Shown here: positions 44,151 to 63,875 of the stretch, in pieces
How positions within the stretch are numbered: the first letter of the stretch is position 1
Layout of the letters: every line of letters begins with the position of its first letter
Source: Shinella sp. PSBB067
GTDB lineage: Bacteria; Pseudomonadota; Alphaproteobacteria; Rhizobiales; Rhizobiaceae
NCBI RefSeq assembly: GCF_016839145.1
Contig: NZ_CP069303.1
Coordinates: 3,394,501 to 3,458,500 of the forward strand
Direction of reading: 5' to 3'
DNA length: 64,000 bases
Position numbers and translations under genes: made by a program
The notes under the pieces: generated by a model
Seen by the model: the letters and a program-made list of their open reading frames with translations, nothing else
What the model was told of the DNA's origin: nothing
The model's database searches: none

Positions 44151-44241
44151 ATACCCCTCCTCAAAATTCAACCGGGCATGCGTGAGCACGCGTTCTGCGA
44201 CGCTCTCGAAAATCTGGATCAGCCCGGTGCGATTCCCCAAC

Positions 44242-44265
44242 CGCTATATTTTCAGAAATATATCG
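44242..44265. promoter_or_regulatory. Mo-box-like operator before the TonB receptor
   Basis: CGCTATATT-N6-AATATATCG, an almost perfect palindrome in the otherwise gene-free 305-base gap 44151-44455. The same sequence pattern occurs before the ABC importer at 47283. It matches the architecture of the Mo-box (CGNTATATA-N6-TATATANCG) bound by ModE/MopA-type molybdate-responsive regulators, differing at the inner position of each half. No modE gene is in the window. Confidence 0.65.
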
Positions 44266-44455
44266 ATGCTTGTTTTCAGGCAACCCCGAGATAGGCGCCC
44301 TGGGCCCCTGTTCCCCTCTATTTCACACATGGAGTTTCATGAAGAATGCGAAAATCGGGGGAACGGATGTATCAAAGGCACAGCTTTCAGGCCTGCAGAC
44401 CTCCCGACGGCCGCAGGGCAAAGTGCTCTAGCCGCTCCTAAAAAATGTCTTCGCG

Positions 44456-46239: not shown

Positions 46240-47270
46240 TACCTGTCCGCATCCCGGCCGATGAGGCCCGCGAGCTGGGCGTCATCCAGCTCGACATGAT
46301 AGAACAGCTTGAAGAAGGTCCTGACGTCCTCGTCCAGCTTCGCCGGGAAAGCCTCGGGATAGAGCGTGTGCTCCAGCCATGAAATGCCGATCAGCCGGTT
46401 CACTCCGGGCGGGGAATCGATCCAGCCGAAGGGCAGAGCCGGTGCGACGTGGATCCTCCCGGCCTTCACCGCGTCGAGTTCCCGCCAGAGCGGATCATCC
46501 TTGATCGCGTGGGCGAATTTCGGCGAGGAGGCGAGGATGACGTCCGGTTTCCACGACAGGACCTGCTCGAGCGAAACCTGCGTCAGGCCGCCCTTGCCAG
46601 CGGCGGCGGCAGCGTTGCGCGCGCCGGCCGCCTCCAGGATCTCCATGTTGATCGAGCCGGAAAGCCCCGTCTCCAATCCCTCCGCGCCACGCCCGAAGTA
46701 GACCGACGGGCGCTTTTCCGCGGGAATGGCGGCAAGGCTCTTTTCCAGTGCGGCGAGCTTTTCGTCGGCATAGGCAGCAAGGGCTTCTGCCCGTTCGGGA
46801 ACGCCAAGGATCGCACCCGTCTCTCGCAGCATGGCGGCGCTGCGGGCGAAGGTGCCATCGATCAGCACATAGGGAATGCCCGTTTGCGCCTGCACCTTGT
46901 CGGCAAGCGAGGCATAGGTGGCGCTCACCGTGCCGACGTCCACGATGATATCGGGCCTTGCCGCCAGCACGGCCTCCATATTCGCCGTGCCTCCCTTGCC
47001 GGTGAGTTGTCCGAAGACGGGAAGGTCGCGGACGGCGGGCAGCAGGAAAGCTTTTTCCTCCGGCTTCGGCTCACGCACCCAGCCGGCGAGTTTTTCCGGA
47101 GCGAGAACATAGACCAGCACGGAGGCCGGCGGGCCGGCGGCGAGCACGCGCTGCACCTTGTCCGGTATCTCCACGACACGGCCGGCGGCGTCTGTGACAC
47201 TGCGCGCCGTCGCAGGTAGAGAGGACAAAAGAAGAGCGACAAGACCGACAAGGCCACGGAAGACCGACAT
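46239..47270 (-). CDS. FecB/BtuF-type periplasmic binding protein
   Basis: 343-residue class III binding protein. Signal peptide (LVGLVALLLSSLPATARS), then VTDAAGRVVEIPDKVQRVLAAGPPA, the usual first strand, and ILEAAGARNAAA, SWKPDVILASS and LPFGWIDSPPGVNRLIGISWL in the second lobe. The ending LFYHVELDDAQL is also family-typical. ATG 47270 follows GGAGAG; the frame upstream of it is not a signal peptide. Automatic annotation would call it iron-binding. The Mo-box-like site directly upstream and the DUF2478 partner favour molybdate or tungstate, as in the MolBCA type II importer. Confidence 0.85.
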   Translation of the reverse strand: MSVFRGLVGLVALLLSSLPATARSVTDAAGRVVEIPDKVQRVLAAGPPASVLVYVLAPEKLAGWVREPKPEEKAFLLPAVRDLPVFGQLTGKGGTANMEAVLAARPDIIVDVGTVSATYASLADKVQAQTGIPYVLIDGTFARSAAMLRETGAILGVPERAEALAAYADEKLAALEKSLAAIPAEKRPSVYFGRGAEGLETGLSGSINMEILEAAGARNAAAAAGKGGLTQVSLEQVLSWKPDVILASSPKFAHAIKDDPLWRELDAVKAGRIHVAPALPFGWIDSPPGVNRLIGISWLEHTLYPEAFPAKLDEDVRTFFKLFYHVELDDAQLAGLIGRDADR

Positions 47271-47282
47271 TAAACTCTCCGT

Positions 47283-47306
47283 CGATATATTATGGAAAAT
47301 ATATCG
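47283..47306. promoter_or_regulatory. Mo-box-like operator before the ABC importer
   Basis: CGATATATT-N6-AATATATCG, a perfect 9-bp inverted repeat only 13 bases upstream of the binding-protein ATG, so a bound repressor would cover the ribosome site or the promoter start. Same pattern as the site at 44242. Confidence 0.68.
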
Positions 47307-47523
47307 CGGTTCGCCAAAAAATAGCAACAAATGATAAGGTTTGAGAAGCATCAATCATCGACCTGGCGATCGTGACCCCAGCGCGCGGCAGAACAGGTTA
47401 CCTTGTCAGCCCAAGCGATCCCGGAGAGGCTTGGTCGCGATTTCCTGCACTGGTTGAAGAGCGCTCCTGTGCGCAACAGGCAGGAAGCGAGCAGGTAGCT
47501 GATGTCGTTGGATTAATTGCCCG

Positions 47524-47844
47524 TCATTGCACCTTTGGCGCTGAACACATCGCCTTTGCCCAGTCTCCAAACAAAACGCGGCGCTCCATCAACCGCGCCA
47601 TGGTGGCATCCGAAATTACGCCCTTCCTGATGCTTGGAAAAAGATAGCCGTCGCGGGCAAGAGGCTTCGTCTGCTTGATGAGCGATAGCGTTTCCGGTAC
47701 GAGCGGGACCCGGAAATCGGGTGTTTTGTCTTTGCGCCCCTTCTGCTTTCCGCCGGGGATCGTCCAGGCGTCACCCTCGGATAGCTTACCGGGACCGACA
47801 TTCCTTCCGGCAAGCGCTGAAAGCTTGTTCAATGCCCTCGTCAA
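47524..47844 (-). pseudogene. Tyrosine recombinase/integrase fragment
   Basis: About 90 residues match the mid part of a phage-type integrase: DAWTIPGGKQKGRKDKTPDFRVPL, PLARDGYLFPSIRKGVISDATMARLMERR. The catalytic Arg-His-Arg-Tyr region that should follow is replaced by unrelated sequence (VLFGDWAKAMCSAP) and the N-terminal domain is missing. It is a remnant, consistent with an old integration event in this region. The flanks 47307-47523 and 47845-48058 show no further gene. Confidence 0.7.
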
Positions 47845-48058
47845 TTGATCTCCTTACGCTTTTCGCTTCACGTGAACAAATTCGCACTACAATGGACGTG
47901 ATTCTACAATAAAACACAGGACAATCAGCAGAGATCTGCCTTTAGTAGGCAAATTTGTACCTCGCAACACAAGTATTCAATGTGGGCATTGGGAAAGATA
48001 TATTTTTGCCTTCCGGCCTGCCATCAATATCAGGGCCACAGTTCAACTGCCAATCAAT

Positions 48059-48871
48059 TCAATTGCTTTCCTTTCGAACGTTGGCATTTCCCAGCATCGG
48101 CATGAGAAGGTTGAAGAGTTCGGCCTGGGAACATATGCCGCACCGGCTATAGAGCTGCTTTCTAAAAACCTTGACCGTTTCGGTGCTCACCCCAAGCTGC
48201 AAGCCGATGGATGGCGAGGAATGCCCCTGCAAAATCAGGAGCGCGACTTCGGCCTGACGGGTGCTTATGGACACACCATGATTGCTCCGGAGCTCCTGGC
48301 GAAGGCTATCGGCCAGGGACGTCGCGCGGGGGATGTTGAGATGTGGCGCATCGAGCGCGTTCCAATGGGCCCTGAGGACGGCCATGATGACCGACCGGTG
48401 TTTTCGAAGGCCCTCCTCGGCCTTTTGCGAAAACGTCGTTCCCGAGGACGAATCCTTGCCCATTGAAATCGTGATGGTCGCGTTCCGGGAGACGGGGAGG
48501 ATGACGGAGATCTCGTCGGAAATCCCGATCCTGCCGTAGTACCATTTATAGTAGCGACTGCTGCGGAACTGGTCCGGCGCGACGTCAAGCAGGCGGTAGA
48601 GCCCGGCGTCGCCGTGCCTCAAGTGGAAGTGGTAGACCGGATCCAGGAGATAGGCGCCGGAAAGGTATTGCTCATCGACGAACCGGAACACATCGGGACC
48701 GTAATGCCGCGTATGGGCGATGTGGGGGACGTTCGAACCAACGAAGATGACGACGATCACGTTGTCGAATTCCAGGCATTCGCGCAGGTACGCGCACATC
48801 AACGGATAGAATTGGGCGGAGCCGACAGCATCGATCGCCGCGGCGAGGCTATCGAGGACGGAGAATCTCAT
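48059..48871 (-). CDS. LuxR-family transcriptional regulator
   Basis: 270 residues. The last 65 form a LuxR-type helix-turn-helix (STRQAEVALLILQGHSSPSIGLQLGVSTETVKVFRKQLYSRC, residues about 203-245). The N-terminal 190 residues contain FDNVIVVIFVGSN, YKWYYGRIGISDEISVILPV and resemble the sensor part of a rhizobial LuxR subgroup without a clear autoinducer-binding signature. It is transcribed away from the catabolic cluster and may control it. The start is ATG 48871 (GTG 48874 also possible) behind GGGGG. Confidence 0.85.
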   Translation of the reverse strand: MRFSVLDSLAAAIDAVGSAQFYPLMCAYLRECLEFDNVIVVIFVGSNVPHIAHTRHYGPDVFRFVDEQYLSGAYLLDPVYHFHLRHGDAGLYRLLDVAPDQFRSSRYYKWYYGRIGISDEISVILPVSRNATITISMGKDSSSGTTFSQKAEEGLRKHRSVIMAVLRAHWNALDAPHLNIPRATSLADSLRQELRSNHGVSISTRQAEVALLILQGHSSPSIGLQLGVSTETVKVFRKQLYSRCGICSQAELFNLLMPMLGNANVRKESN

Positions 48872-48875
48872 CACC

Positions 48876-48895
48876 TATACCCCCATGGGGTTATA
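48876..48895. promoter_or_regulatory. Palindrome at the luxR-type gene start
   Basis: TATAC-CCCCATGGGG-TTATA is a 20-base palindrome with one mismatched pair, lying directly before the LuxR-type start and including its ribosome site. Its position suggests autoregulation or control of the facing cluster. Confidence 0.5.
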
Positions 48896-49012
48896 TGCCC
48901 CTCTCAAGGATGGCTTACAGTCGAAAACCATAAAGAGAAGGGTTATAAATCCAAGCCGGGCAGCGTGAAAAGCCCGCCCGTGACGCGGGACAGGGCAACT
49001 GCGGCGTCGAAA

Positions 49013-49026
49013 CTTGTATAGACAAG
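49013..49026. promoter_or_regulatory. HutC-like operator before the catabolic cluster
   Basis: CTTGTATAGACAAG, inverted arms CTTGT/ACAAG, 55 bases upstream of the first cluster gene. It matches, with one change, the TTGTA-N2-TACAA site at 52972 and the TGTA-N2-TACA pattern bound by HutC-subfamily GntR repressors, one of which is encoded in the cluster. Confidence 0.6.
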
Positions 49027-49080
49027 CCTGCACATCCGCCAAAGGCACGTCAAAAAGTGCCAGTCAACGAGGGTGACACA

Positions 49081-51096
49081 ATGCGAAAGCCGCTGAACCA
49101 TTCAGCCATGCCCGTTGCTGGCTACATCGAGCCGTGGAGCGTCAAGGCCGGCGCCTCGACCCGGGCCCATCTTTCCTGTGTCGACCCGCACGCGTCGTTC
49201 CGCATCGTCTCCCTCGACCGGGACGAGCAGGAGGTGGCGGAGTGGGACTTGCAGCGCCATTCCGGCAGCTTCAAGGTCCGGGATTTCTCTCTGGGCTCCT
49301 GGGTCGAGCTCCCGGCGCTCCCCGAAACGGGCGATGCCGGCTGGCAGCTCAGCTTCGAATTTCTGCCAACGCAGAACGACACGCGCAAAACCATCTGCGT
49401 TCTCGGCGATCTCGCCGTTTCGATGGACGCGGACGGACATCTCGATATCGCCACCGCTGATGGTATCCATGCCTTTGCGCAGGTTTCCAACGAGCGCTGG
49501 TACGAGCTTTCCGTCTCCGGCTCGTCCGCCGGCCTCGCCGCGACATTGGTGGCCTCGGCGCGGCGGACCGAGATCGCCAGCGTGGACTTTCACGGCGCGG
49601 TTCATCCCCTCGGCCGCATCTGCATCGGCTCGGACGGGAGCGGGGAGACAAAATCCTTCAACGGGCGCATCGGCCGGATATCGCTCGATGCCGCCGGCCG
49701 GCAGTGCTCCTGGCGTTTCCCGACCCGCGGGCCGGTCGAGCGCCTGGGCTCGGTGGAGGACAGCGCGCTTGCCCTGACGATCCACAACATGCCCACGTTC
49801 TGCGTGGCGTCCGCGCGGTTTACCGCCGAGGTGCATGATCCGCGATTGGAACCCTCGCATTTCGACGCGATCCACCTTCACGACGACGATTTCGGCGGCT
49901 TCGACTGGCCTGCCGACCTGACGATAGACATCCCCGCGGACGCACGGGCCGGCATTTTCGCTCTGGAAGTGACCACGGGACAGGGCACCGAGCGCCTGCC
50001 GTTCTTCGTTCGGGCGGCGAAGCCTTCGGCGGCGCTCGCCTTCCTCGTCCCGACCTCGACCTATCTGGCCTATGCCGACGAACGCCTCCCGCCGGTCCGC
50101 TATCCCTGGCACGGATCGGATCGCGGGCATCTCTTCGCGCTCGACAACGGTTTTCTGTGTCTCTACGACGTCCACAGCGACCTCAGCGGCGTGAGCCTGA
50201 CATCGGCGCGCCGCCCGCGCGCGACGTTGCGCGACGACTATCACTATCCGCTTTCCAATTGCCCGCATCTGTTGCCGGTCGATCTTCAGCTTCTGAAGTT
50301 CTATGCGCGGGAAGGCATCGACATCGACATATTGACGGACCGCGACCTCCATGACGAGGGATACGCGGCGGTCGCCGCCTACAGGGGGCTGCTGACGGGC
50401 AGCCATCCGGAATACTGGTCTTGCGACATGATGAAGGCGCTCGACGGCTATCTCGATGCGGGCGGCAATCTGGCCTATCTCGGCGGCAACGGCTTTTACT
50501 GGGTCGTCGCCTACCAGGGCGAGACCATGGAGCTGCGGCGGGTCAAAAGCGACATCTGGACCGGCCGGCCGGGCGAAGCGCACATGTCGATCACCGGCGA
50601 GCCCGGCGGCAACTGGGAAGACCGGGGCCTGCGGAACCCGCAATCCTATCTCGGCGTCACCTACCTGATCATGAGCTTCGGGCCGAGCCGGCCCTATGGC
50701 AGGCTCGAAGGCAGCTTCGCCCCGGAACACCGCTGGCTCTTCGACGGCATTGCCGACGGGCCGATCGGAGACGGCGGAACGGTGCTGGGCGGCGCGGCCG
50801 GCTATGAGATCGACGCCGTGGTGCGCTCGCAGGAAACACCGAAGAACCTGGTGCGGCTCGCCACGGCGGACGGCTTCGACGACAGTTTCCAGGTCCGGCC
50901 CGAGGTCTGGCTGGCCGACGGGAACGTCGAACGCGAGACGCTGCGGCGCGCGGACATGACGATCTATCGCCACGACGGTGGCGGGCAGGTCTTCTGCACC
51001 GGCTCGGTGGCATGGATCGGCGCCCTGCCCGGCCCCGGCGAAGGCAACGCCGTGGGAACGATCATGAAGAACCTCGCAGAAGGGTTCAGCCGATAA
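49081..51096 (+). CDS. N,N-dimethylformamidase-like large subunit
   Basis: 671-residue protein of the DMFase large-subunit family: an N-terminal beta-sandwich with a lectin-like domain (about 85-225), then a catalytic alpha/beta domain. Paracoccus DMFase uses a mononuclear iron held by two Tyr and one Glu with a nearby His; here Tyr328 or Tyr331 (STYLAYAD), Tyr362 (CLYDV) and His442/Glu444 (GSHPEYWS) have matching order and spacing. The reaction would be hydrolysis of an N-substituted formamide or related amide. The small subunit gene of true DMFase is absent. ATG 49081 follows GAGGGTGA; GTG 49057 is an alternative. First gene of the cluster, behind a HutC-like site. Confidence 0.8.
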   Translation: MRKPLNHSAMPVAGYIEPWSVKAGASTRAHLSCVDPHASFRIVSLDRDEQEVAEWDLQRHSGSFKVRDFSLGSWVELPALPETGDAGWQLSFEFLPTQNDTRKTICVLGDLAVSMDADGHLDIATADGIHAFAQVSNERWYELSVSGSSAGLAATLVASARRTEIASVDFHGAVHPLGRICIGSDGSGETKSFNGRIGRISLDAAGRQCSWRFPTRGPVERLGSVEDSALALTIHNMPTFCVASARFTAEVHDPRLEPSHFDAIHLHDDDFGGFDWPADLTIDIPADARAGIFALEVTTGQGTERLPFFVRAAKPSAALAFLVPTSTYLAYADERLPPVRYPWHGSDRGHLFALDNGFLCLYDVHSDLSGVSLTSARRPRATLRDDYHYPLSNCPHLLPVDLQLLKFYAREGIDIDILTDRDLHDEGYAAVAAYRGLLTGSHPEYWSCDMMKALDGYLDAGGNLAYLGGNGFYWVVAYQGETMELRRVKSDIWTGRPGEAHMSITGEPGGNWEDRGLRNPQSYLGVTYLIMSFGPSRPYGRLEGSFAPEHRWLFDGIADGPIGDGGTVLGGAAGYEIDAVVRSQETPKNLVRLATADGFDDSFQVRPEVWLADGNVERETLRRADMTIYRHDGGGQVFCTGSVAWIGALPGPGEGNAVGTIMKNLAEGFSR

Positions 51097-51163
51097 GACT
51101 CACCTGGTGGAAACCCCTGCCCGGATCGAAACACGCCAATATCACCAAAAGAAAGGGAACGAC

Positions 51164-52159
51164 ATGATCAGCATTTCTCGACGCAACATGCTTGCACTGA
51201 TGGGCGGAACGCTCGCAGCACCCTATATCGTCACGGCCAAAGCCAGCGCCGCCCCGGCGGTGGAGCCGGGCATCTTCAAGATGTCCATCCAGCCGTGGAT
51301 CGGCTACGGCATGTGGTATGTCGCCCAGGACAAGGGCATCTTCGCGGCCAACGGGCTCGAGGGCGTCGAGTTCATTCCCTATACGGAAGACGCCGCCAAT
51401 CTGGCAATTCTGGCCAGCGGCGAGATCCAGGGCACGAACAGCGCCACGCACAACGTGCTGCAGCACCTGCAGGAATCGCCCGACTACCGTATCGCCCTGA
51501 TCGAGGACTACAGCACCACCGCCGACGCCATCGTCAGCCCGAAGAGCATGAATTCCGTCGCCGACCTCAAGGGAAAATCCATCGCCTTCGAGGAAGGCAC
51601 GACCAGCCACCTCCTCGTCGCCGACGCGCTCAAGAAGGCGGGCCTGAAGCTGAGCGACCTCAACTGGACCAACACGCCCGCATCGCAGGCCGCCGCCGCC
51701 CTGCTGTCCGGCTCGACGGACGCGATGGTCACCTATGAACCCTACATCTCGACCGCGCTGAAAGCCGATCCGAACCTCAAGCTCCTCTATACCGCGGCCG
51801 AAAATCCCGGCCTCATCAGCGACTGCTTCGTCGTCACGACCCGGACGCTGAAGGAGCGGCCCGGCCAGGTGCGCGCGATGGTCAAGAGCTGGGGCGATGC
51901 CGTGGACCTCTACAACAAGAACCCCGAAGAGTGCCAGGCGATCATCGCCAAGGGCGTCGGTTCCGATCCGAACGAGCTGGGGACGACCTTCGAGGGCGTG
52001 CACTACTATACGCTGGAGGAGAACAAGACCCTGCTGACCGGCGAGTACGCGACGAAGACCTTCCCGGCCGTGAACGCCGCCAGCCTGGAGCTCGGCCTGA
52101 TCAAGAAGACCTTCGAGGCCAAGGACGTCATCGACACGACGGCCCTTTCGTCGCTTTGA
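51164..52159 (+). CDS. NitT/TauT-type ABC substrate-binding protein
   Basis: 331 residues with a Tat-type signal (SRRNMLALMGGTLAAPYIVTAKASA), then an NMT1/SsuA-like fold: FKMSIQPWIGYGMWYVAQDKGIFAANGLEGVEF, split by variable positions, SPKSMNSVADLKGKSIAFEEGT and ASQAAAALLSGSTDAMVTYEP. Such proteins bind small organic anions, amines or heterocycles. Export already folded through Tat is unusual among neighbours. It is separated from the DMFase-like gene by 67 bases and followed by a strong hairpin. The ligand is unknown but presumably the cluster's substrate. Confidence 0.87.
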   Translation: MISISRRNMLALMGGTLAAPYIVTAKASAAPAVEPGIFKMSIQPWIGYGMWYVAQDKGIFAANGLEGVEFIPYTEDAANLAILASGEIQGTNSATHNVLQHLQESPDYRIALIEDYSTTADAIVSPKSMNSVADLKGKSIAFEEGTTSHLLVADALKKAGLKLSDLNWTNTPASQAAAALLSGSTDAMVTYEPYISTALKADPNLKLLYTAAENPGLISDCFVVTTRTLKERPGQVRAMVKSWGDAVDLYNKNPEECQAIIAKGVGSDPNELGTTFEGVHYYTLEENKTLLTGEYATKTFPAVNAASLELGLIKKTFEAKDVIDTTALSSL

Positions 52160-52166
52160 TCCCCAT

Positions 52167-52196
52167 GGCCGGCCCTGCAGGTTTGCAGGGCCGGCC
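52167..52196 (+). terminator. 13-bp hairpin behind the binding-protein gene
   Basis: GGCCGGCCCTGCA (52167-52179) and TGCAGGGCCGGCC (52184-52196) pair perfectly around a GGTT loop, eight bases past the stop codon, with no T-run. It is likely a message-stabilising or partial-termination hairpin raising binding-protein levels over downstream genes. Confidence 0.7.
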
Positions 52197-52208
52197 GGGA
52201 CAGCCAAG

Positions 52209-52937
52209 ATGCGCCAGCACCTCGATCGCACCATTCCGCTTCCGCTCTACCAGAAGGTCAAGGACCACATCCTCGACCAGGTAAGGCGCGGCCAACTGAA
52301 ACACGGCGTGAAAATCCCTTCCGAGGCCGAGCTCGTCGAACGCTTCGGCGTATCGCGCATGACCGTCCATCGGGCGCTGCGGGAGCTTTCGGCGGCAGGC
52401 GTGGTCGATCGCGTCCAGGGGCTCGGCACCTTCGTCTCGGCGCCCCCGGCGCAGACCGAGCTCATGGAGCTGAAGGACATAGCCGACGACATCAAGGCCC
52501 GAGGCAATGTCCACACGCAGAAGGTCAGGCTTCTCGAGACGATCAGCGCCACGGCGGAACAGGCAGCCTATTTCGACATGCCGCGCGGCTCTCGCCTGTT
52601 CCATTCGATTATCGTGAACTACGAGGACGGAGTGCCGGTGCAGGTGGAGAACAGACTGATCCGGCCGAGCTTCGCCCCCGGCTATCTCGAGCACGACTTC
52701 CAGGCCGTCCCCTCGACGCGCTACCTGCGCTCCATCGCCGACGCGACGAAGATGGAGCATTCGGTCTGCGCCTCGATGGCGGATGCGCAAGCATGCGCGT
52801 TGCTGGAGTTTCCCGAGCCTCGGAGCGTGATGATCCTGACGCGCCGCACCTGGGTCGGGGAAATGGCGGTCAGCCGAAGCGTGTTCACCTATCCCGGCGA
52901 TACCTACAGCCTCATCAGCCGCCGCACCATGGAATGA
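52209..52937 (+). CDS. GntR-family regulator, HutC subfamily
   Basis: 242 residues: winged HTH at about 10-75 (PLPLYQKVKDHILDQVRRGQL, GVSRMTVHRALRELSAAGVVDRVQGLGTFVS in pieces), then a UTRA effector domain from about 95 (RLFHSIIVNYEDGVPVQVENRLI, RTWVGEMAVSRSVFTYPGDTYSL). HutC proteins are usually repressors released by an intermediate of the pathway they control. Two palindromes of the HutC type, before the cluster and just behind this gene, are likely targets. Confidence 0.9.
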   Translation: MRQHLDRTIPLPLYQKVKDHILDQVRRGQLKHGVKIPSEAELVERFGVSRMTVHRALRELSAAGVVDRVQGLGTFVSAPPAQTELMELKDIADDIKARGNVHTQKVRLLETISATAEQAAYFDMPRGSRLFHSIIVNYEDGVPVQVENRLIRPSFAPGYLEHDFQAVPSTRYLRSIADATKMEHSVCASMADAQACALLEFPEPRSVMILTRRTWVGEMAVSRSVFTYPGDTYSLISRRTME

Positions 52938-52970
52938 AAGATCGCCGGGGCGCGACCCTCGGCGGCCGGA

Positions 52971-52984
52971 CTTGTACATACAAA
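52971..52984. promoter_or_regulatory. HutC-like operator before the permease gene
   Basis: TTGTA-CA-TACAA (52972-52983) is a perfect inverted repeat in the 104-base gap between the regulator and permease genes. It suggests a second, separately controlled transcript for the permease and catabolic genes. Confidence 0.62.
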
Positions 52985-53041
52985 TCTATGCAGGCGCCCC
53001 CCGCGGCTGCAGTCCTCCAATCGAACGAGCAAGGCAGACCT

Positions 53042-53845
53042 ATGGCCAAGCCCCGAAAGAAATCCCTTCTCAGCATGCAGGCTGAGATCTCGCCATCGAC
53101 CTATCTCATCATCTCCGTGTGCTCCTTCGCGATCTTCTTCGCGGTCTGGGCTTTGATCGTGCAATCCGGCCTCGTCCGCCCGATCTTCCTGCCGTCCCCC
53201 GTGGCGATCGTCGCGCGCCTGTGGGCGCTCGGCGCCGACGGCACGCTGTTCTCCGACATTGCGGCAAGCGTCTATCGCATCGGTATCGGCTTCGCCGTCG
53301 CATCGGTTTCGGCGCTCGCCGTCGGCGTGCTGATCGGCAACTACAAGTTCTGGGATGCGGCCATCGAGCCCTTCCTCGACTTCATACGCTACATGCCGGT
53401 CGTCGCCTTCGTTCCCCTGACGATCCTGTGGACCGGCACGACGGACACCCAGAAGTTCCTGGTGATCTGGATCGGGACGTTCTTCCAGCAGGCCTTGATG
53501 TTCATGGACAACATCAAGCGCGTCCCGCCCGATTTCATCGGCTTCGGCCGGACGGTCGGACTGAGTGACACGAAAATCGTCACGAAGATCATCCTGCCCT
53601 CGGCCGCGCCGCAGATCTGGGACACGCTGCGCATCTCGCTCGGCTGGGCATGGACCTGGGTTGTGCTCGCCGAGCTCGTCGCGGCCAGCAGCGGCCTCGG
53701 CTACCGCATCACCGTCGCGCAGCGTTATTTCCAGACCGACACGGCCATCGGATACATCGTGGTGCTCGGCGTTCTCGGCCTGATCAGCGACCAGATCATG
53801 AAATTCCTGGGCAAGCGCATGTTCCGCTACGAGGCAAAACACTGA
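53042..53845 (+). CDS. NitT/TauT-type ABC permease
   Basis: 267-residue permease with six helices. GNYKFWDAAIEPFLDFIRYMPVVAFVPL holds the typical segment before the EAA loop (FGRTVGLSDTKIVTKIILPSAAPQIWDTLRISLGWAWTW in pieces). The family includes SsuC, TauC and NrtB. The start ATG 53042 (MAKPRKKS) is preferred; ATG 52988 would add an unlike 18 residues. Its stop overlaps the ATPase start (TGATG). Confidence 0.9.
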   Translation: MAKPRKKSLLSMQAEISPSTYLIISVCSFAIFFAVWALIVQSGLVRPIFLPSPVAIVARLWALGADGTLFSDIAASVYRIGIGFAVASVSALAVGVLIGNYKFWDAAIEPFLDFIRYMPVVAFVPLTILWTGTTDTQKFLVIWIGTFFQQALMFMDNIKRVPPDFIGFGRTVGLSDTKIVTKIILPSAAPQIWDTLRISLGWAWTWVVLAELVAASSGLGYRITVAQRYFQTDTAIGYIVVLGVLGLISDQIMKFLGKRMFRYEAKH

Positions 53846-54621
53846 TGGAAAAGCTTCTGATCCGCGACCTGACGAAGACCTTTCCGGCCGGGCGCTCCAC
53901 CAAGGACCGTGTTACCGTTCTCGACAACATCTCGCTGACGATCCGCGAGAACGAATTCGTTTCGCTGGTCGGCGCATCCGGCTGCGGCAAGAGCACGCTG
54001 CTTTCGATCATCGCCGGACTGCAATCCCATGACGATGGCGACCTCAAGGTCGACGGAAACGACATCCTCGGACCTGGCGCGGACCGCGGCGTGGTTTTCC
54101 AGAGCTATACGCTTCTGCCCTGGCTGACGGCCAGGAAGAACGTGGAATTCGCGCTGGAAGCGACGGGGCATCCGAAGGCCGAGATCGGCGATCTTGCGAT
54201 GACACAGCTCAGGCTGGTGGGCCTGGAAGCCTTTGCGGACCGCTATCCCGCGCAGCTTTCCGGCGGCATGAAGCAGCGGGTCGCCATCGCGCGCGCGCTC
54301 TCCTACAAGCCGAAGCTGTTGCTGATGGACGAGCCGTTCGGCGCCCTGGACGCGCTGACCCGCGTGCAGATGCAGGAACTGCTCACGAGCGTCTGGGAGC
54401 GGGAAAAGCTGACCGTGATCTTCGTCACGCACGATGTCGAGGAAGCCGTCTTCCTTTCCGACCGGATCTTCGTGATGGCCTCCAATCCCGGCCGCATCAA
54501 GACGACCTACGATGTCCCCCTGCCGCGACCGCGCACGCCCGATACCCACCGGCTGCCGGAATTCGCGCAGCTTCAGGCCGAAGTGCTCGGCAGCATCCGT
54601 TCGGAGATGCGGGATCGATGA
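53845..54621 (+). CDS. NitT/TauT-type ABC ATPase
   Basis: 258-residue ATPase. Walker A GASGCGKST at 43-51, VFQSYTLLPWLTARKNVEFAL Q-loop, signature SGGMKQR near 138 and Walker B LLLMDEPFGALDALTR. The C-terminal NPGRIKTTYDVPLPRPRT is typical for SsuB/TauB/NrtD proteins. It overlaps the permease stop and the next gene's start by a few bases, so translation is coupled. Confidence 0.92.
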   Translation: MEKLLIRDLTKTFPAGRSTKDRVTVLDNISLTIRENEFVSLVGASGCGKSTLLSIIAGLQSHDDGDLKVDGNDILGPGADRGVVFQSYTLLPWLTARKNVEFALEATGHPKAEIGDLAMTQLRLVGLEAFADRYPAQLSGGMKQRVAIARALSYKPKLLLMDEPFGALDALTRVQMQELLTSVWEREKLTVIFVTHDVEEAVFLSDRIFVMASNPGRIKTTYDVPLPRPRTPDTHRLPEFAQLQAEVLGSIRSEMRDR

Positions 54622-56198
54622 GAGATTTCCATTTTCCCGGGCGGTCCGTCGTCCGCGGCCAGGAATGCATGATCGCCACAGCGCATCCCGCCGCGTCCGC
54701 CGCCGCCTTCGGCATCCTGCAATCGGGCGGAAACGCCTTCGACGCCGCGATCTGCGCCGCCGCGCTGCTGGCGGTGGTGGAGCCGCAGGCAAGCGGCGTC
54801 GGCGGCGACAGCTTCGTTCTTGGTCATGCGTGCGCCTCCGCAAGGACATTCGGCCTCAACGGATCGGGCAAGAGCGCCGCCGCGATGACCGCCGACGCCC
54901 TGCGCGCGTTGGGCTATACCGGGATGCCGCTGCGCGGCGCGCTTGCCGTCACCTGCCCGGGGGCGGTGGACACCTGGGCGCGCCTCCATGCCGACCACGG
55001 CAGCCTGGATTGGGAGAGACTCTTCCATCCAGCCATCAGGGCGGCCGCCGACGGTTATGTCGTCGCCGACCGCGTGGCGCTCGACTGGAGCTCCTTCGCG
55101 CCGGCACTGGCGACGACGCCGGAGGCGGCGGCCCGGTTCCTCACGGGCGGCCGCGCCTTCCGCGCCGGCGAAATCCACCGCCAGCCGGAGCTTGCACTGA
55201 CGTTGCGCGAGATCGCGGCCAAGGGCCGCGACGGTTTCTATCGCGGCTGGGTCGCGGACGATATCGTGGCGACCCTCGAACGCGGAGGGTCCTGCCTCTC
55301 GCACGACGACCTCGAAAGAACGGCGTCATTCTACGTCGATCCGTTGCGCATCGACTACAAGGGCTTCGAGGTCCTGCAGCTTCCGGCCAACAATCAGGGC
55401 GCCACGGCCCTCCTCCTGCTGAACATTCTCAAGCATCTGCCGAAGACCGACCATTTCAGCGCGGAACGCTTCCACCTGCTGCTCGAAGCGGCGCGGCTCG
55501 CCTATCGCGAGCGCGATCGCTCGATCGGCGACCCGGAGCACAGCGCCGTCGACCACCGGCGGTTCACCAGCGACGCCCATGCCGCCGCGCTCGCCGCCAT
55601 GATCGACGGGGACAGGACGACAAGGGAATTCGGGGAGCCGGCCACGCGCAAATCCGATACCACCACCATTTCGGTGGTGGACGGTTCCGGCAACGCGGTG
55701 ACGCTGATCAATTCGCTCTACCACCATTTCGGCAGTTGCGTCCTGGCGCCGAAATCCGGCGTACTGCTTCAGAACCGCGGCAGCGGCTTCAATCTGGTAC
55801 CTGGCCATCCGAACGAATTCGGGCCCGGAAAACGCCCGCTCCACACGATCATGCCCGGCATGACGCTGAAGGACGGAAAGCCGTCGCTGGTCTACGGCGT
55901 CATGGGCGGGGACTACCAGGCGATCGGTCACGCGCAGCTCGTCACCAATGTCGTCGACTTCGGCCTCGACGTGCAAGAGGCCATCGACCTGCCGCGGACC
56001 TTCCATTTCAAGGGGTTTGCCGAGGTCGAACGCTCGATGCCCGCGCATATCGTCGAGGGCCTGACCAGGAGGGGCCACAGCGTCCAGGTGGCGCATCTTC
56101 CCATCGGCGGGGCGCAGGCCATCTGGATCGATCCGCAGCGCGGTACGCTTGCCGGCGGGTCGGACCCCCGCAAGGACGGCCTGGCGATCGGGATGTGA
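54618..56198 (+). CDS. Gamma-glutamyltransferase homologue, cytoplasmic
   Basis: 526-residue Ntn-hydrolase of the GGT family. The autocatalytic nucleophile is Thr348 in DTTTISVVD, preceding GSCVLAPKSGVLLQNRGSGF and the PGKRPLHTIMPGM segment; the N-terminal half has GGNAFDAAICAAALLAVVEPQASGVGG. Unlike periplasmic GGT it has no signal peptide, so it acts inside the cell as YwrD-type relatives do. Possible roles are removal or transfer of a gamma-glutamyl group or hydrolysis of another amide in the pathway. ATG 54618 overlaps the ATPase stop. Confidence 0.87.
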   Translation: MRDFHFPGRSVVRGQECMIATAHPAASAAAFGILQSGGNAFDAAICAAALLAVVEPQASGVGGDSFVLGHACASARTFGLNGSGKSAAAMTADALRALGYTGMPLRGALAVTCPGAVDTWARLHADHGSLDWERLFHPAIRAAADGYVVADRVALDWSSFAPALATTPEAAARFLTGGRAFRAGEIHRQPELALTLREIAAKGRDGFYRGWVADDIVATLERGGSCLSHDDLERTASFYVDPLRIDYKGFEVLQLPANNQGATALLLLNILKHLPKTDHFSAERFHLLLEAARLAYRERDRSIGDPEHSAVDHRRFTSDAHAAALAAMIDGDRTTREFGEPATRKSDTTTISVVDGSGNAVTLINSLYHHFGSCVLAPKSGVLLQNRGSGFNLVPGHPNEFGPGKRPLHTIMPGMTLKDGKPSLVYGVMGGDYQAIGHAQLVTNVVDFGLDVQEAIDLPRTFHFKGFAEVERSMPAHIVEGLTRRGHSVQVAHLPIGGAQAIWIDPQRGTLAGGSDPRKDGLAIGM

Positions 56199-56201
56199 TC
56201 G

Positions 56202-57485
56202 ATGAACAGTTCGGTCGCTATCGTCGGGGCGGGCGTGATCGGAACAGTCACCGCCATCGAACTCGACCGCCTCGGTTACGATGTCACGCTGATCGACCGG
56301 GACGAGCCGGGCAGCAGCGGGGCGGCAAGCTCCGGCAACGGGGGCTGGCTCTGCCCGGCCTCCATCATTCCTGTTTCCGTGCCTTCGCTGTTGTGGCGCC
56401 TGCCGTCGTTCCTCTTCGGAAGGTCGGCGCCCCTCAGCGGCAACCTTGGTTTTGCCATCCGCAACGCCCGCCATTTTGCACGTTTCGTGACCTCCGGGCT
56501 TACGCTCGAGCGGGTTCGTCACAAGGCGGGCGCCCTCTCCACCCTGCTTTCCGACACGGTCGCGCGGCACCAGGCCCTCGCGAAGGAGGCCGGCCTGCAA
56601 CATCTGATCAGGTCGGAAGGCCTCCTCTACACCTACGGCAGCGAGCAGGCCTTTCGCCGCGACCTGCGCTGGTGGACCCTGCGACGCGAGCTCGGCGTGA
56701 ACTGGACCTTCCTCGACGGCAGGGCGTTGCGTGCGGAAGAGCCGGGCATCGAGCGCGATTGTTTCGGCGCAGTCCTGGTCACCGACGGTGGCCATTGCAT
56801 CGATCCCGCAGGTTACGTCAGGGGTCTTGCCGATCACGCCCGTCGACGCGGCGTCCATGTCATCAAGGCCGACGTCACGAGGCTGATCCACGCCGGCCAC
56901 AGGCTTGCGGGGCTCGAAACGTCGCAGGGGATGCTCGCGTTCGATGCGGTCGTGATTTGCGGCGGTGCGCATTCGCGCGCCCTCGCGCGCCAGATCGGCG
57001 ACGACCCGCCCCTTCTCAGCGAGCGGGGCTACCATGTCACGCTGCCGCCGGGCGAACGATTGAGGCGGCCCGTCATGTTCGATGACGCTTTGATGGTCGC
57101 AACCCCGATGATCGACGGCATCCGTCTGGCCGGCCAGGTCGAGATCGCCGGCCCGGACAGCCCGCCCGACTGGTCGCGCGCCCAGGCATTGCTCGATCTC
57201 GCCCGACGATACTTCGGCGCCCTGCCGGGCGACATCCGGCAGCCGGGCGTTTCCATCTGGATGGGCCGCCGGCCGGCCATCGCCGACGAGCTTCCCGTCA
57301 TCGGACGCGCGACGAACATGGAGAACGTGCATTTCGCGTTCGGACACGGCTTTACGGGACTGGGCGCCGCGCCGGCCACCGCCGCGCTTGCGGCACGATC
57401 CCTGCAATCCGTTTGCGCGGCTTCACCGCAAGCCTCCCCCTTTTCCCCTCAACGCTTCCCGGTGCGCACGAGCAGCCCGCCTTAA
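56202..57485 (+). CDS. DadA-like FAD-dependent oxidoreductase
   Basis: 427 residues: dinucleotide-binding GAGVIG at 9-14, SSGNGGWLCPAS near 44, and C-terminal WMGRRPAIADELPVIGRA followed by FAFGHGFTGLGAAPATAAL, the pattern of D-amino acid dehydrogenase and other DAO-family enzymes that oxidise a C-N bond to an imine. An amine or amino acid intermediate of the cluster is the probable substrate. It follows the GGT gene by three bases. The last 25 residues are a variable tail. Confidence 0.88.
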   Translation: MNSSVAIVGAGVIGTVTAIELDRLGYDVTLIDRDEPGSSGAASSGNGGWLCPASIIPVSVPSLLWRLPSFLFGRSAPLSGNLGFAIRNARHFARFVTSGLTLERVRHKAGALSTLLSDTVARHQALAKEAGLQHLIRSEGLLYTYGSEQAFRRDLRWWTLRRELGVNWTFLDGRALRAEEPGIERDCFGAVLVTDGGHCIDPAGYVRGLADHARRRGVHVIKADVTRLIHAGHRLAGLETSQGMLAFDAVVICGGAHSRALARQIGDDPPLLSERGYHVTLPPGERLRRPVMFDDALMVATPMIDGIRLAGQVEIAGPDSPPDWSRAQALLDLARRYFGALPGDIRQPGVSIWMGRRPAIADELPVIGRATNMENVHFAFGHGFTGLGAAPATAALAARSLQSVCAASPQASPFSPQRFPVRTSSPP

Positions 57486-57494
57486 GGAGATACC

Positions 57495-58838
57495 ATGTCC
57501 GAGACCCCCATTTCGATCCACAAGCTCTGCGACCTGGACGAGGCCCAGCGCAAAAGCCTGCTGCAACGCACGGAAAACGATCTGAGCGCCTTCATGGAGA
57601 AGGTGATCCCGATCATCGACGCCGTCCGGCGCGATGGCGACAAGGCGCTTGCCGACTTTGCGAACAGGTTCGACAAGGCCCCGATCGCCGCGGACCAAAT
57701 TCGTGCGACGCCCGGGGAATTCGCCGCCGCCCGTGCATCTATCGACCGCGAGCTGATCGAAACGCTCGAATTCGCCGCGAAAAACATCCGTCACTTCCAT
57801 GAAAGGCAGATGCCGGAAACGCTGGCCCTGCACGAGACGCATCCCGGCGTCCTCGTCGGCGACCGCTGGAACGCGATCGACTCCGTTGCCTGCTATGTCC
57901 CGCGCGGCAAGGGCTCCTTCCCGAGCTCCGTCCTGATGACCGCGATTCCCGCGAAGGTGGCAGGCGTGAAGAAGGTCGTCGTCATCACACCGCCCGGCCC
58001 CGACGGAACCGTCGATCCGGCGACCCTGGTCGCTGCCGAGATCGCCGGGGTAGCAGACGTCTTCAAATGCGGCGGGGCGCAAGGCATCGCGGCCGTCGCG
58101 TTCGGGACGCAGACGGTTCCCAAATGCGACAAGGTCGTCGGCCCCGGCAGCCCATGGGTGGTGGCGGCAAAAAAGCAGCTTTCGTCCGTCATCGATCCCG
58201 GCAGCCCGGCCGGTCCGAGCGAGTTGATCGTCTTCTCGGACGGCACCGTCCCGCCGGAGCTGGTCGCCCTGGATCTGTGCGTGGAATCCGAGCACGGTCC
58301 CGACTCGTCGGTGTTCTTCGTCACCGACAGCGAGGACTTCGCACATGCCGTTGCTTCCCGCATACCCGCCTTCTGGTCACAGATGGGGGACGTCCGGGCG
58401 CAATATTCCAAAACCGTCCTTTCCGGCCCGAGAGGCGGGATCGTCGTTACCCGCACGAAGGAGGAAGCCTTCGCCTTCGTCAACGACTACGCTCCGGAAC
58501 ACCTCGCGGTCCTCGCCGACAATGCCTGGCAATACCTCACCCGCTTTGAACATGCAGGCGAGATTCTCCTTGGCCCGCATTCGGCGATCAGCATCGCCAA
58601 CTTCGTGCTCGGACCGAGCCATGTCCTGCCGACGGGAGCGGCCGCGAAAACGATGTCTCCCCTGGCAGTCTTCGATTTCCTGAAGCGCACGTCGATCGCG
58701 TCCCTTTCCGAGGCGGCCTACGAAAGCTTTGCCGGCCATGCGGAGCGCCTCGCGCGGTATGAGGGCTTCGATGGCCATGCCAACGCGGTCTCGTCAATCC
58801 GGGACAAGGTTCTCCACGCGGCCGCGCGCACTGCCTGA
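57495..58838 (+). CDS. Histidinol dehydrogenase homologue, catabolic type
   Basis: 447-residue HisD-family protein. HisD oxidises an amino alcohol to the acid with two NAD. The catalytic Glu335-His336 (PEHL) and zinc-type His267 (SEHGPD) and His428 (DGHANAV) are kept. Two other zinc-ligand positions differ from E. coli HisD: Gln259 aligns with Glu264 and Asp360 with Asn369. NAD-contacting FPSSVLMTAIPAKVAGV is present. Its location far from his genes, ending a catabolic operon, and these changes point to another alcohol or aldehyde substrate, as in other HisD-like enzymes such as HpsN. Starts at 57495, nine bases behind the oxidoreductase gene. Confidence 0.88.
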   Translation: MSETPISIHKLCDLDEAQRKSLLQRTENDLSAFMEKVIPIIDAVRRDGDKALADFANRFDKAPIAADQIRATPGEFAAARASIDRELIETLEFAAKNIRHFHERQMPETLALHETHPGVLVGDRWNAIDSVACYVPRGKGSFPSSVLMTAIPAKVAGVKKVVVITPPGPDGTVDPATLVAAEIAGVADVFKCGGAQGIAAVAFGTQTVPKCDKVVGPGSPWVVAAKKQLSSVIDPGSPAGPSELIVFSDGTVPPELVALDLCVESEHGPDSSVFFVTDSEDFAHAVASRIPAFWSQMGDVRAQYSKTVLSGPRGGIVVTRTKEEAFAFVNDYAPEHLAVLADNAWQYLTRFEHAGEILLGPHSAISIANFVLGPSHVLPTGAAAKTMSPLAVFDFLKRTSIASLSEAAYESFAGHAERLARYEGFDGHANAVSSIRDKVLHAAARTA

Positions 58839-59013
58839 GACGCCCGGCGCCACCGCGCCCGTTCCTTGCCTGGAGAACGCACGCCGGGCGATTGTCCCAT
58901 GCGGGGGTATTCCCGCCATGCTAGGATACGTCGCCCGTGGCGCCGTGTGGCGCTGCAACGAACAAATCCCGCCGTGCCGCGTTCTCCAGCGCAAACGGCG
59001 AAAGGAGCGCGTC

Positions 59014-59277
59014 ATGGTCTTCAAGGAAGGAACCTTCAAGGGCGAGGTGCCCGAGCATTTCGACGGGCCTCATCCGGCCTGGCTCGAGGCCGCGGTCGCC
59101 GATGCGCTTTCGGTGGCGGGCGACGTGGACGCCTCTGATATCACCGTGACCTGCAAGGGAACGCGCATCGTGCTCTCGGGCAGTATCGGCTCCGCCGAGG
59201 AGGCCGAGCGCGCGGTGACCATCGCCGCTTCGGTCAAGGAGGTCAGCGAGGTCGACAACCGGCTTTCCTGGCTCTGA
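59014..59277 (+). CDS. Small BON-domain protein
   Basis: 87 residues holding one BON domain: PAWLEAAVADALSVAGDVDASDITVTCKG in its first half, IVLSGSIGSAEEAERAVTIAASVKEVSEVDNRL in its second, with the conserved glycine of the beta-turn. No signal peptide, so cytoplasmic. BON domains bind membranes or ligands in stress-related proteins. ATG 59014 follows AAAGGAG. Lies alone between the cluster and the acyl-CoA synthetase. Confidence 0.85.
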   Translation: MVFKEGTFKGEVPEHFDGPHPAWLEAAVADALSVAGDVDASDITVTCKGTRIVLSGSIGSAEEAERAVTIAASVKEVSEVDNRLSWL

Positions 59278-59351
59278 CCCCGCAAAAGCCGCCATTGCGG
59301 GGCGGCCCTCCGGAATGCTAGGTGCAATGCAGCAAACTGGAGTGACGCCGG

Positions 59352-60995
59352 ATGCTCGCTGCACGACCGACCTATGATGCCCTGTACCGGGATTTCCGCT
59401 GGCAGATCCCCGAACGGTTCAACATCGGCGTTGCCGTCTCCAACGCCTGGGCGGCGCGCGAGCCGGGCCGCGTCTGTCTCCAGCATTTCCTGCCGGATGC
59501 GCCGCCGCTCTCCATGACCTATGGCGAGCTCGCCGCCCGCTCCGACGCCTTCGCCGCGGCACTGGCGGCGGAGGGCGTGCGCGCGGGCGACCGCGTCGCT
59601 ATCCTGCTGCCGCAGGGCTTCGAGACGGTCGTCACGCATGTCGCCATCTACAAGCTCGGCGCCATCGCCCTGCCGCTCGCCCTGCTCTTCGGCGCGGATG
59701 CCCTGCTCTACCGGCTGAGGAATGCCGGGGCGAGGGCGATCGTCACGAACCGCTTCGGCCTGGACCGCCTCGCCCCGATCCGCAGCGATCTTCCGACGCT
59801 GGAGCTGGTGGTGACGACCGAGCCCGGTGCGGACCCCGCCGCCCGATCGTTCCAGGACCTGGTTTCCCGCCACGCCGGTCCCTTCGCCCCCGTGGACAGC
59901 GGGCCGGACGATCCGGCCATGATGATCTACACCTCGGGCACCACCGGTCCGCCGAAGGGCGCGCTGCATGGGCATCGCGTGCTGCTCGGCCATGTGCCCG
60001 GCTTCCAGATGCATCACGAGTTCCTGCCGCAGCCCGGCGACCGCATCTGGACCCCGTCCGACTGGGCCTGGGCGGGCGGGCTCCTCAACGTGCTGCTGCC
60101 GGCGCTGCTGCTCGGCGTGCCGGTCGTCTCCTCGCCCGGCCAGAAATTCGATCCCGACATGGCCTACCGCATCATGCAGGACATGGACGTGCGCAACGCC
60201 TTCATCCCGCCGACGGCGCTGCGGCTGATGAAGACGGTCGCCGATCCGCGCGGGACATACCGGCTCAACCTGCGCACCATCGGTTCGGCCGGCGAATCGC
60301 TCGGCCGCGAGACCTGGGAATGGGTGCGCGACACGCTCGGCATCACCATCAACGAGTTCTACGGCCAGACCGAGTGCAACATCGTGCTCGGCTCGATCGG
60401 CAAGATCGGCGTGTCGCGGCCGGGGCCGATCGGCAAGCCCGTGCCGGGCCATGTGGTCGCGATCGTCGATACGGATGGCCGGGAGGTACCGCGCGGCACC
60501 GTCGGCCAGGTCGCCGTCAGGCGGCCCGACCCCGTGATGTTCCTCGGCTACTGGCAGGACGAGAAGGCGACGGCGGCGAAATTCGTCGGCGACTGGCTGA
60601 TGACCGGCGATCTCGGCCGCATGGACGAGGAGGGCTACGTCACCTTCTTCGGCCGCGACGACGACGTCATCACCTCCTCCGGCTACCGCATCGGCCCGAG
60701 CGAGATCGAGGACTGCCTTGCCGGCCACCCCGCCGTGCAGCTCGCCGCCGCCGTCGGCAAGCCGGACCCGGTGCGCACGGAAATCGTCAAGGCCTATGTG
60801 GTGCTGCGCCCCGGCCAGGCGCCCTCGCCGGCGCTGGCGGCCGACATACGCGAATGGGTGAAGTCACGGCTTTCCATGCACGAATATCCGCGGGAGGTCG
60901 ATTTCGTGGATTCCCTGCCGCTGACCACGTCCGGCAAGGTCATCCGCCACCTCCTGCGCAAGCGCGCGGCCGAAGAGGCCGCACACGCGGCATAG
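59352..60995 (+). CDS. Acyl-CoA synthetase (AMP-forming)
   Basis: 547-residue ANL-superfamily ligase activating a carboxylic acid with ATP and CoA. P-loop-like IYTSGTTGPPKGALHGH from about residue 193, NEFYGQTECN near 333, and WLMTGDLGRMDEEGYVTFFGRDDDVITSSGYRIGP (in pieces) with the ATP-gripping Asp and hinge. The C-terminal catalytic Lys is in LPLTTSGKVIRHLLR. Sequence resembles acetyl- or medium-chain acyl-CoA synthetases; the chain length is not determined. Confidence 0.9.
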   Translation: MLAARPTYDALYRDFRWQIPERFNIGVAVSNAWAAREPGRVCLQHFLPDAPPLSMTYGELAARSDAFAAALAAEGVRAGDRVAILLPQGFETVVTHVAIYKLGAIALPLALLFGADALLYRLRNAGARAIVTNRFGLDRLAPIRSDLPTLELVVTTEPGADPAARSFQDLVSRHAGPFAPVDSGPDDPAMMIYTSGTTGPPKGALHGHRVLLGHVPGFQMHHEFLPQPGDRIWTPSDWAWAGGLLNVLLPALLLGVPVVSSPGQKFDPDMAYRIMQDMDVRNAFIPPTALRLMKTVADPRGTYRLNLRTIGSAGESLGRETWEWVRDTLGITINEFYGQTECNIVLGSIGKIGVSRPGPIGKPVPGHVVAIVDTDGREVPRGTVGQVAVRRPDPVMFLGYWQDEKATAAKFVGDWLMTGDLGRMDEEGYVTFFGRDDDVITSSGYRIGPSEIEDCLAGHPAVQLAAAVGKPDPVRTEIVKAYVVLRPGQAPSPALAADIREWVKSRLSMHEYPREVDFVDSLPLTTSGKVIRHLLRKRAAEEAAHAA

Positions 60996-61054
60996 GGCAT
61001 TTCCCTCTTGCCGCATTGTCCGGCATAGAAGCGATTCCGCTTCGGCTGGAAGCT

Positions 61055-63749: not shown

Positions 63750-63849
63750 AGGAACCCGAACGCTACGCAGAACTCAACAGGGCCAGTCTTGGCAGATCAG
63801 GGTTAACAAAGGGTTGGACGACCCGGTGCGAAAGGCCCGGCCGGCAAAG

Positions 63850-63875
63850 AAAATGCCGCCCGAAGGCGGCATTCC
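63850..63875 (-). terminator. Terminator of secA
   Basis: On the minus strand AATGCCGCC-TTCG-GGCGGCATT forms a 9-bp stem with a stable UUCG loop followed by TTCTTT, 55 bases behind the secA stop codon. The gap 63750-63928 otherwise shows nothing. Confidence 0.8.

Follow-up and report, generated by a model that had tools for sequence, protein, structure and literature searches.

A HutC-controlled gene cluster of Shinella sp. PSBB067 as a candidate feeder of histidine utilisation

Within a 64,000-nucleotide stretch of Shinella sp. PSBB067 (contig NZ_CP069303.1, positions 3,394,501 to 3,458,500; the window), a HutC-family repressor stands in a run of eight genes together with a DMFase (dimethylformamidase)-like iron hydrolase, a NitT/TauT-type importer, a gamma-glutamyltranspeptidase (GGT) homologue, a DadA-like oxidase and a HisD-family dehydrogenase. 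Histidinol dehydrogenase is the final enzyme of histidine biosynthesis. What, then, does a repressor of histidine utilisation (hut) control here, and what would a HisD-type enzyme oxidise in a catabolic-looking setting? The cluster may be a HutC-controlled feeder of the hut pathway, in which import, amide cleavage and oxidation by HisD lead to histidine. The scales stand about level for this reading as a whole, tip slightly in favour of a product that feeds hut, and fall just short of level for HisD acting on histidinol or a closely related imidazole alcohol. Gene content, operators, conservation and active-site residues were read from the sequence; the linkage to hut is well supported, and the substrate, product, order of steps and inducer are what we infer.

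According to the proposed scheme, the NitT/TauT-type ABC system would import an amide, whose C-N bond would be split by the DMFase-like hydrolase; in the clade of the window, the GGT-fold hydrolase and the DAO-type flavoenzyme would probably remove additional amide or amine groups. The HisD-family enzyme would carry out a four-electron oxidation of the freed primary alcohol to the acid. Histidinol, or an imidazole alcohol close to it, is the likeliest identity of this alcohol; the product would then be L-histidine or would lead to L-histidine, and the hut enzymes, encoded elsewhere in this genome at a distance of approximately 2.3 Mb, would degrade the resulting histidine. HutC would repress through both palindromes of the cluster (Table 1), with relief by a hut intermediate or by the substrate of the cluster. 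The order of import, amide hydrolysis and alcohol oxidation had been suggested from the letters and open reading frames alone (the sequence-only reading); it finds support here and is kept as a proposal.

HisD relatives, hut genes and HutC operators

The window HisD departs from true HisD at two zinc ligands (Gln259 to Glu and Asp360 to Asn) and retains His262 and His419. When the window protein was aligned with 28 cluster relatives, some of them duplicates, both replacements, both histidines and a PRGKG loop were found in all 29 rows; the catalytic residues Glu326 and His327 are kept in these 29 rows and at 65 loci. The Glu/Asn signature is present in 64 of the 65 retrieved loci with a HisD match, the exception being L002. 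The variant HisD noticed in the sequence-only reading is a member of a Glu/Asn zinc-site subfamily, whose link to hut had been overlooked. In the tree, the window HisD clade is firm (100/100).

HpsN has the HisD fold with a changed substrate and oxidises dihydroxypropanesulfonate (DHPS); both Gln and Asp are present in CpHpsN, whose D352A mutant loses much activity (PMC11382572; this and the other papers are cited from excerpts). With 280 bits to true HisD and 216 bits to HpsN, the window HisD is nearer to the former, and residue His126 of the HpsN sulfonate loop, as named in the PMC11382572 excerpt, is absent from the window protein, whose loop reads PRGKGSFPS. The genome of the strain has four HisD-family genes: besides those of the two cluster copies, there is a canonical gene (540 bits) and another on contig C3; Gln and Asp are kept in the canonical and the HpsN-like proteins. 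The HpsN-like paralogue (L002 8025-9338, G000 C3) has HpsN as its best match (382 bits), carries Leu at the position of CpHpsN His126 as judged by eye, and is possibly a further branch of the HisD family.

Another finding concerns genomes with a single HisD. In six of 13 genomes counted (G433, G480, G459, G427, G013 and G308), the sole HisD is of the Glu/Asn type; G403 has two HisDs, both of this type, and the other six genomes have two to four. The whole window signature, including His367, matches G013 and G308. These sole-HisD genomes imply that the subfamily can probably act on histidinol, and the changed zinc ligands were accordingly dropped as proof of a non-histidinol substrate.

The link to hut was seen in the neighbourhoods of the subfamily. 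Searching with a HisD from the clade that carries a kinase-like family, here called KIN, gave 68 places in 66 of 395 genomes, of which 40 were retrieved, 16 with KIN. At least two hut enzyme genes lie in eight of these 40 contexts (L049, L060, L066, L067, L068, L118, L130 and L131, in four families) and at least one in 11; a HutC-type gene is present in 21 and an operator in 17, and 27 contexts have at least one of the three. At L130 and L131, HisD lies 3' of hutI-hutH-hutG-hutU after a gap of approximately 340-430 bases. The hut identities rest on NCBIfam for L049 (HutU, HutG, HutH and HutF) and L062 (HutI), and on tblastn for the others. The operator pattern [AT]TGT[AC]TA[TG]ACA[AT] gave 19 sites in 12 loci (221 kb), which had been chosen for hut or KIN content and include the strain's own hut locus, versus 0.025 in 40 shuffles; the sites precede hut genes as well as HisD units, and L063 and L065 are the two of the 12 without one. 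In 19 further loci, one or two operators were found in 13 and none in L057-L059, L076, L083 and L084, and the pattern was likewise absent from six comparison loci that lack a Glu/Asn HisD (L002, L051-L054 and L064).

KIN proteins (e.g., L006 14971-16260; approximately 430 residues) occur in the variant clusters described below and mostly have no Pfam domain. A weak Pfam APH match (E 0.021) and an invariant HGDAHNAN loop were observed, and a predicted model (pLDDT 80.5) weakly resembles APH-type kinases, with TM scores of 0.23-0.44 to the query among the matches listed; this resemblance was taken only as additional support for what the loop suggests. Of 397 genomes, 29 encode the family, and in 28 of these a Glu/Asn HisD is no more than 4 kb away; the two are 172 kb apart in G085. 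At two loci (L083 11551-13596 and L084 6289-8334), a protein resembling old yellow enzyme and trimethylamine dehydrogenase stands beside the HisD unit in the place of KIN. A lactate-dehydrogenase-like FMN enzyme was found in seven of the 40 HisD contexts, Lut-type proteins are encoded at L049, and some HisD loci add a HisC-like transaminase; a route from hydroxy acid through keto acid to histidine would use the lactate-dehydrogenase-like or Lut enzymes and this transaminase. We tentatively propose, with somewhat more doubt than confidence, that an undescribed and widespread upstream branch of hut exists in the order of the host, in which HutC-controlled modules with a catabolic Glu/Asn histidinol dehydrogenase scavenge imidazole alcohols and amides of these and pass histidine on to hut. 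Its swappable front ends would be the DMFase-like enzyme, the GGT-fold enzyme, a set of zinc-dependent alcohol dehydrogenase (ADH), short-chain dehydrogenase/reductase (SDR) and APH-like kinase, FMN or Lut-type lactate dehydrogenases, and the HisC-like transaminase.

The window HutC passes the TIGR02018 equivalog cut-off. Sites of the type TTGTA-N2-TACAA had been claimed at two points: the exact form occurs once, at 52972-52983 (shuffle mean 0.00), and the other site, CTTGTATAGACAAG at 49013-49026, reads TTGT-N4-ACAA and is one base away from it. For both forms combined, three strand matches (two sites) were counted versus 0.10 expected, a number equalled in none of 100 shuffles. According to the excerpts, the HutC site of Pseudomonas is TGTA-N2-TACA (PMC12977541) and the HutC-subfamily consensus is GTMTAKAC (PMC4494728); each window palindrome fits one of these two forms. 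Two palindromes lie at the same two positions in L001, L004, L005, L008 and L071, of which L001 and L005 are nearly identical; in the TTGT-N4-ACAA frame there is one mismatch each in L001, L004 and L005 and none in L008 and L071. In L072, a relative without hutC, neither intergenic stretch holds a site when up to two mismatches are allowed. A rule that restricts the operator to clusters with their own hutC agrees with L072 in the clade of the window and was rejected in general: L013 and L015 have the operator without cluster hutC, and L057-L059, L083, L084 and L115-L117 have a hutC-type gene without an operator of the pattern used. An operator-like word at 38940-38950 (one mismatch) lies inside the open reading frame 38421-39509 and was taken as chance. 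With HutC above its cut-off and the operators conserved in place, the idea of a HutC-controlled catabolic unit holds, and HutC control of the cluster is well supported and very probable.

The conserved core and its additions

The run of eight same-strand, tightly packed genes with overlaps at 49081-58838, as originally described, was recovered by Pfam and NCBIfam profile searches (Table 1); a divergent luxR gene and a second full copy in the same genome had been missed. The permease and ATPase genes overlap by one base, and the ATPase and GGT genes by four. Start codons of the DMFase, binding-protein, permease and ATPase genes were taken from annotated Rhizobium daejeonense homologues.

Table 1. 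Features of the cluster region, in window positions.
Feature	Position	Strand	Evidence
LuxR-type (GerE) regulator, divergent	48059-48874	-	PF00196 33 bits; adjoins cluster in L001, L004, L005, L008, L071, L072, L073
HutC-type palindrome CTTGTATAGACAAG, 5' of DMFase gene	49013-49026	.	fits HutC-subfamily consensus GTMTAKAC
DMFase-like iron hydrolase, 671 aa	49081-51096	+	PF20254 (DMFA2_C) 242.2 bits, cut-off 27; six DMFase residues conserved
NitT/TauT-type substrate-binding protein, 331 aa	51164-52159	+	PF09084 (NMT1) 74.5 bits
HutC-family repressor	52209-52937	+	TIGR02018 247.9 bits, cut-off 220; UTRA and GntR Pfam domains
HutC-type palindrome (C)TTGTACATACAA, i.e. CTTGTACATACAA, between hutC and permease gene	52971-52983	.	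contains TGTA-N2-TACA
ABC permease	53042-53845	+	PF00528 (BPD_transp_1); start by homology
ABC ATPase	53845-54621	+	PF00005 (ABC_tran); start by homology and sequence
GGT-fold Ntn hydrolase with most gamma-glutamyl contacts exchanged	54618-56198	+	PF01019 (G_glu_transpept) 443.6 bits
DAO-type FAD oxidoreductase (DadA-like)	56202-57485	+	PF01266 213.8 bits; DadA model below cut-off
HisD-family dehydrogenase, Glu/Asn zinc-site subfamily	57495-58838	+	TIGR00069 445.5 bits, cut-off 243.8; Histidinol_dh (Pfam) 459.1 bits

One scan of genome contigs gave 15 loci. All eight genes are present in L004 and L005, and L008 has the order DMFase, binding protein, HutC, permease, ATPase and HisD, without GGT and DadA. 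In a variant clade of 11 loci (L006, L007 and L009-L017), the DMFase gene faces the ABC importer; HisD is present in 10 of them (the contig of L014 ends before it) and a cluster hutC in eight (absent from L013 and L015, and cut off by the contig end in L014). The remaining locus, L018, has a distant DMFase (31%) and no HisD. Among plasmid records, L071 (R. leguminosarum WSM2304) carries the six-gene core, and L072 (Ensifer adhaerens) carries it minus hutC; at 4008-10685 of L072, the cluster adjoins, in back-to-back orientation, a glutamate mutase/methylaspartate ammonia-lyase operon, a possible route for hut-derived glutamate. The core gene order is retained at 71-85% DMFase identity in several genomes. 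Near-full-length DMFase relatives of at least 42% identity occur in seven of 397 genomes of the order-wide sample, the strain itself included. From these comparisons, the conserved core is the DMFase-like hydrolase, the ABC importer and HisD, plus HutC and LuxR. Co-occurrence in other genomes, which the sequence-only reading had named as a test for eight genes, thus applies to the core and not to the full set: L008, L071 and L072 lack GGT and DadA, neither of which was seen in the variant clade, so the eight genes do not form one unit, and the pair is, judging from its distribution, a local addition to the core.

The GGT homologue has its catalytic Thr aligned with the E. coli position, and its best solved match is 2nlz. 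In the alignment, as read by eye, residues R114, N411, Q430, D433, S462 and S463 of E. coli GGT correspond to S, Y, R, G, H and T. The available text of PMC8062742 reports R-to-S and SS-to-HT changes in extremophile GGTs as well, and D433-type mutants in which transpeptidation is lost and hydrolysis is partly kept. Since the contact residues are mostly replaced, and in view of these mutant and extremophile data, the enzyme more probably hydrolyses an amide than transfers a gamma-glutamyl group; removal or addition of a gamma-glutamyl group, as initially suggested, is unsupported, and a gamma-glutamylation cycle was rejected because most contacts are lost. Close GGT homologues are widespread (194 of 397 genomes at 1e-110). 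Among 30 loci inspected of more than 150 places, DadA adjoins GGT only in the window itself, and the two were therefore rejected as a recurring pair elsewhere. The DadA-like protein scores 166.5 against the D-amino-acid dehydrogenase model NF001933, under the cut-off of 383.

In the DMFase-like protein, the iron-site and catalytic residues Y399, Y440, H519, E521, N547 and E657 are identical (alignment, by eye), and the nearest solved structure is N-acetyl-(R)-beta-phenylalanine acylase. No DMFase small-subunit gene was noted at the cluster, where a homology search for it was not made; dimethylformamide breakdown was set aside as the partner genes differ, the small subunit lying outside the searches made. 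The binding protein most resembles sulfonate and nitrate binders, yet it stays under the family cut-offs, with 140.7 against SsuA_fam TIGR01728 (163.5) and 48.4 against the taurine model TIGR01729 (304.25). Sulfonate breakdown had been considered in view of this SsuA-like protein and of the trio of HisD, ADH and SDR in relatives; it was set aside because His126 is absent and these cut-offs are not reached, sulfonate-lyase genes being outside the searches made.

The cluster is carried by contig C2 in a genome of 5.77 Mb. The second complete copy, including luxR, is on contig C4 (108,567 bases; L001, G000:C4:36000-54000) and shares 83.8% DNA identity with the window copy over 10.75 kb, so that two diverged versions coexist in one genome. 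Over 15,057 bases, the C4 stretch shares 99.86% identity with plasmid unnamed4 of R. daejeonense KACC 13094 (NZ_CP048428.1 1-20434), in which IS3 and IS5 transposase genes flank the cluster on its two sides. The strain's own hut genes, near C2:1.08 Mb, comprise hutF, hutI, hutH, hutG, hutC and at least part of hutU, which is cut by the end of the retrieved stretch. Downstream of the window cluster, the genes for a BON protein (from 58729) and an AMP ligase (from 59352) have no match in the copies L001, L004 and L005, and Rfam gave no match across 44000-64000. To the left, on the minus strand, a FecCD permease, an ABC ATPase and a periplasmic binding protein (44456-47354) form an iron/siderophore-type importer, and a short minus-strand open reading frame (47524-47844) without a Pfam match resembles a tyrosine recombinase fragment by eye.

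Alternative readings and significance

Several observations weigh against the cluster as a feeder of hut. None of its eight genes encodes a hut enzyme. No hut link appears in 13 of the 40 HisD contexts, including the KIN-type L063 and L065, and the hut-adjacent HisD is the sole HisD in G013 and in the genome that holds L130, where it may therefore be a biosynthetic gene beside hut. DMFase relatives of 42-48% identity have no nearby HisD in four of six other genomes, one stretch per genome being considered (HisD is near in L049 and L050 and not in L051-L054; L051 has an ABC importer). The window HisD differs from true HisD at two zinc ligands, and four f90 genomes with a sole HisD carry Ala at 367, so that the signature does not decide the substrate; the term sole HisD itself presumes complete, prototrophic genomes, and G480 is 84% complete. 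In the tree, the window HisDs join the f14 HisDs, which include two hut-adjacent ones, with 86/85 support, under the firm threshold, and a long-branch warning applies to L002, the canonical row, L077 and L132. Finally, the window operators (CTTGT..ACAAG) and the strain's own hut site (ATGTATATACAT) have different flanks, and the window HutC may thus respond to another ligand.

In one alternative, the HisD-family enzyme oxidises a non-imidazole alcohol, HutC has been recruited with a new effector, and the amide does not lead to histidine. HpsN shows that the HisD fold can switch substrate (PMC11382572, excerpt), the ligands of HutC-subfamily repressors are varied (PMC4494728, excerpt), and the binding protein leans toward sulfonate and nitrate binders while staying under their cut-offs. 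However, the closeness of the window HisD to HisD rather than HpsN, the missing His126, the recurrence of hut genes and HutC operators with Glu/Asn HisDs, and the genomes whose sole HisD is of this type make this alternative unlikely, though it is the one to be taken most seriously. It is less probable still that the cluster is related to histidine without a free amide-alcohol route, that is, that DMFase, GGT and DadA process histidine derivatised as a peptide or with an acyl group, and that HisD acts on a side product or serves biosynthesis from imported histidinol. The six sole-HisD genomes would fit, amide hydrolysis is common to the GGT-fold and DMFase-like enzymes, and a DAO-type flavoenzyme suits amine oxidation; on the other hand, a canonical hisD (540 bits) is already present in the genome, and the hut-type repressor and the importer favour uptake and breakdown. 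A loose neighbourhood of separately functioning genes on a mobile island, with no shared pathway, is very improbable: the transposase genes flanking the plasmid copy and the restriction of GGT and DadA to some members speak for it, but the core order kept at 71-85% DMFase identity, the gene overlaps and the conserved operators speak against it.

If the hut-feeder reading is true, several bacterial families use a version of HisD for food under the hut repressor, a catabolic role that automatic annotation (hisD, 'histidine biosynthetic process') conceals, and the known histidine-utilisation pathway gains an upstream extension. Imidazole alcohols and amides would be indicated as food of soil and plant bacteria, and a function with candidate substrates would be provided for the DMFase-like subfamily, the mostly Pfam-less kinase family and the HisD subfamily with the altered zinc site. 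Among the titles and abstract openings listed, with most subscription journals outside the coverage, no description of this gene combination or of histidinol use of this kind was found. Growth of Arthrobacter histidinolovorans on histidinol is a possible precedent.

Comparison with known systems

Compared with the DMFase large subunit and N-acetyl-(R)-beta-phenylalanine acylase, the window hydrolase shares the PF20254 domain and all six residues, whereas its N-terminal half is shorter and unmatched in alignments and its partner genes differ. The GGT homologue resembles gamma-glutamyltranspeptidase and the class IV cephalosporin acylase fold in its PF01019 domain and catalytic Thr, but has lost most of the gamma-glutamyl contacts of the former. 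As in the DHPS pathway (HpsN, HpsO and HpsP), a HisD-fold enzyme stands beside alcohol oxidoreductases in many relatives of the window HisD; we take the partners of HpsN to be a zinc-dependent ADH and an SDR. In contrast, the window cluster has neither ADH nor SDR, and its HisD lacks His126 and matches HpsN more weakly than HisD. With histidinol dehydrogenase itself, the window enzyme shares the family model, the catalytic Glu326 and His327 and the ligands His262 and His419, while its Glu259 and Asn360, its invariant PRGKG loop and its catabolic-looking setting set it apart. Finally, the cluster resembles the hut regulon under HutC in repressor family and operator form, and HisD relatives adjoin hut operons with similar operators; unlike that regulon, it contains no hut enzyme gene and would place import, hydrolysis of an amide and oxidation of an alcohol to an acid ahead of histidine.

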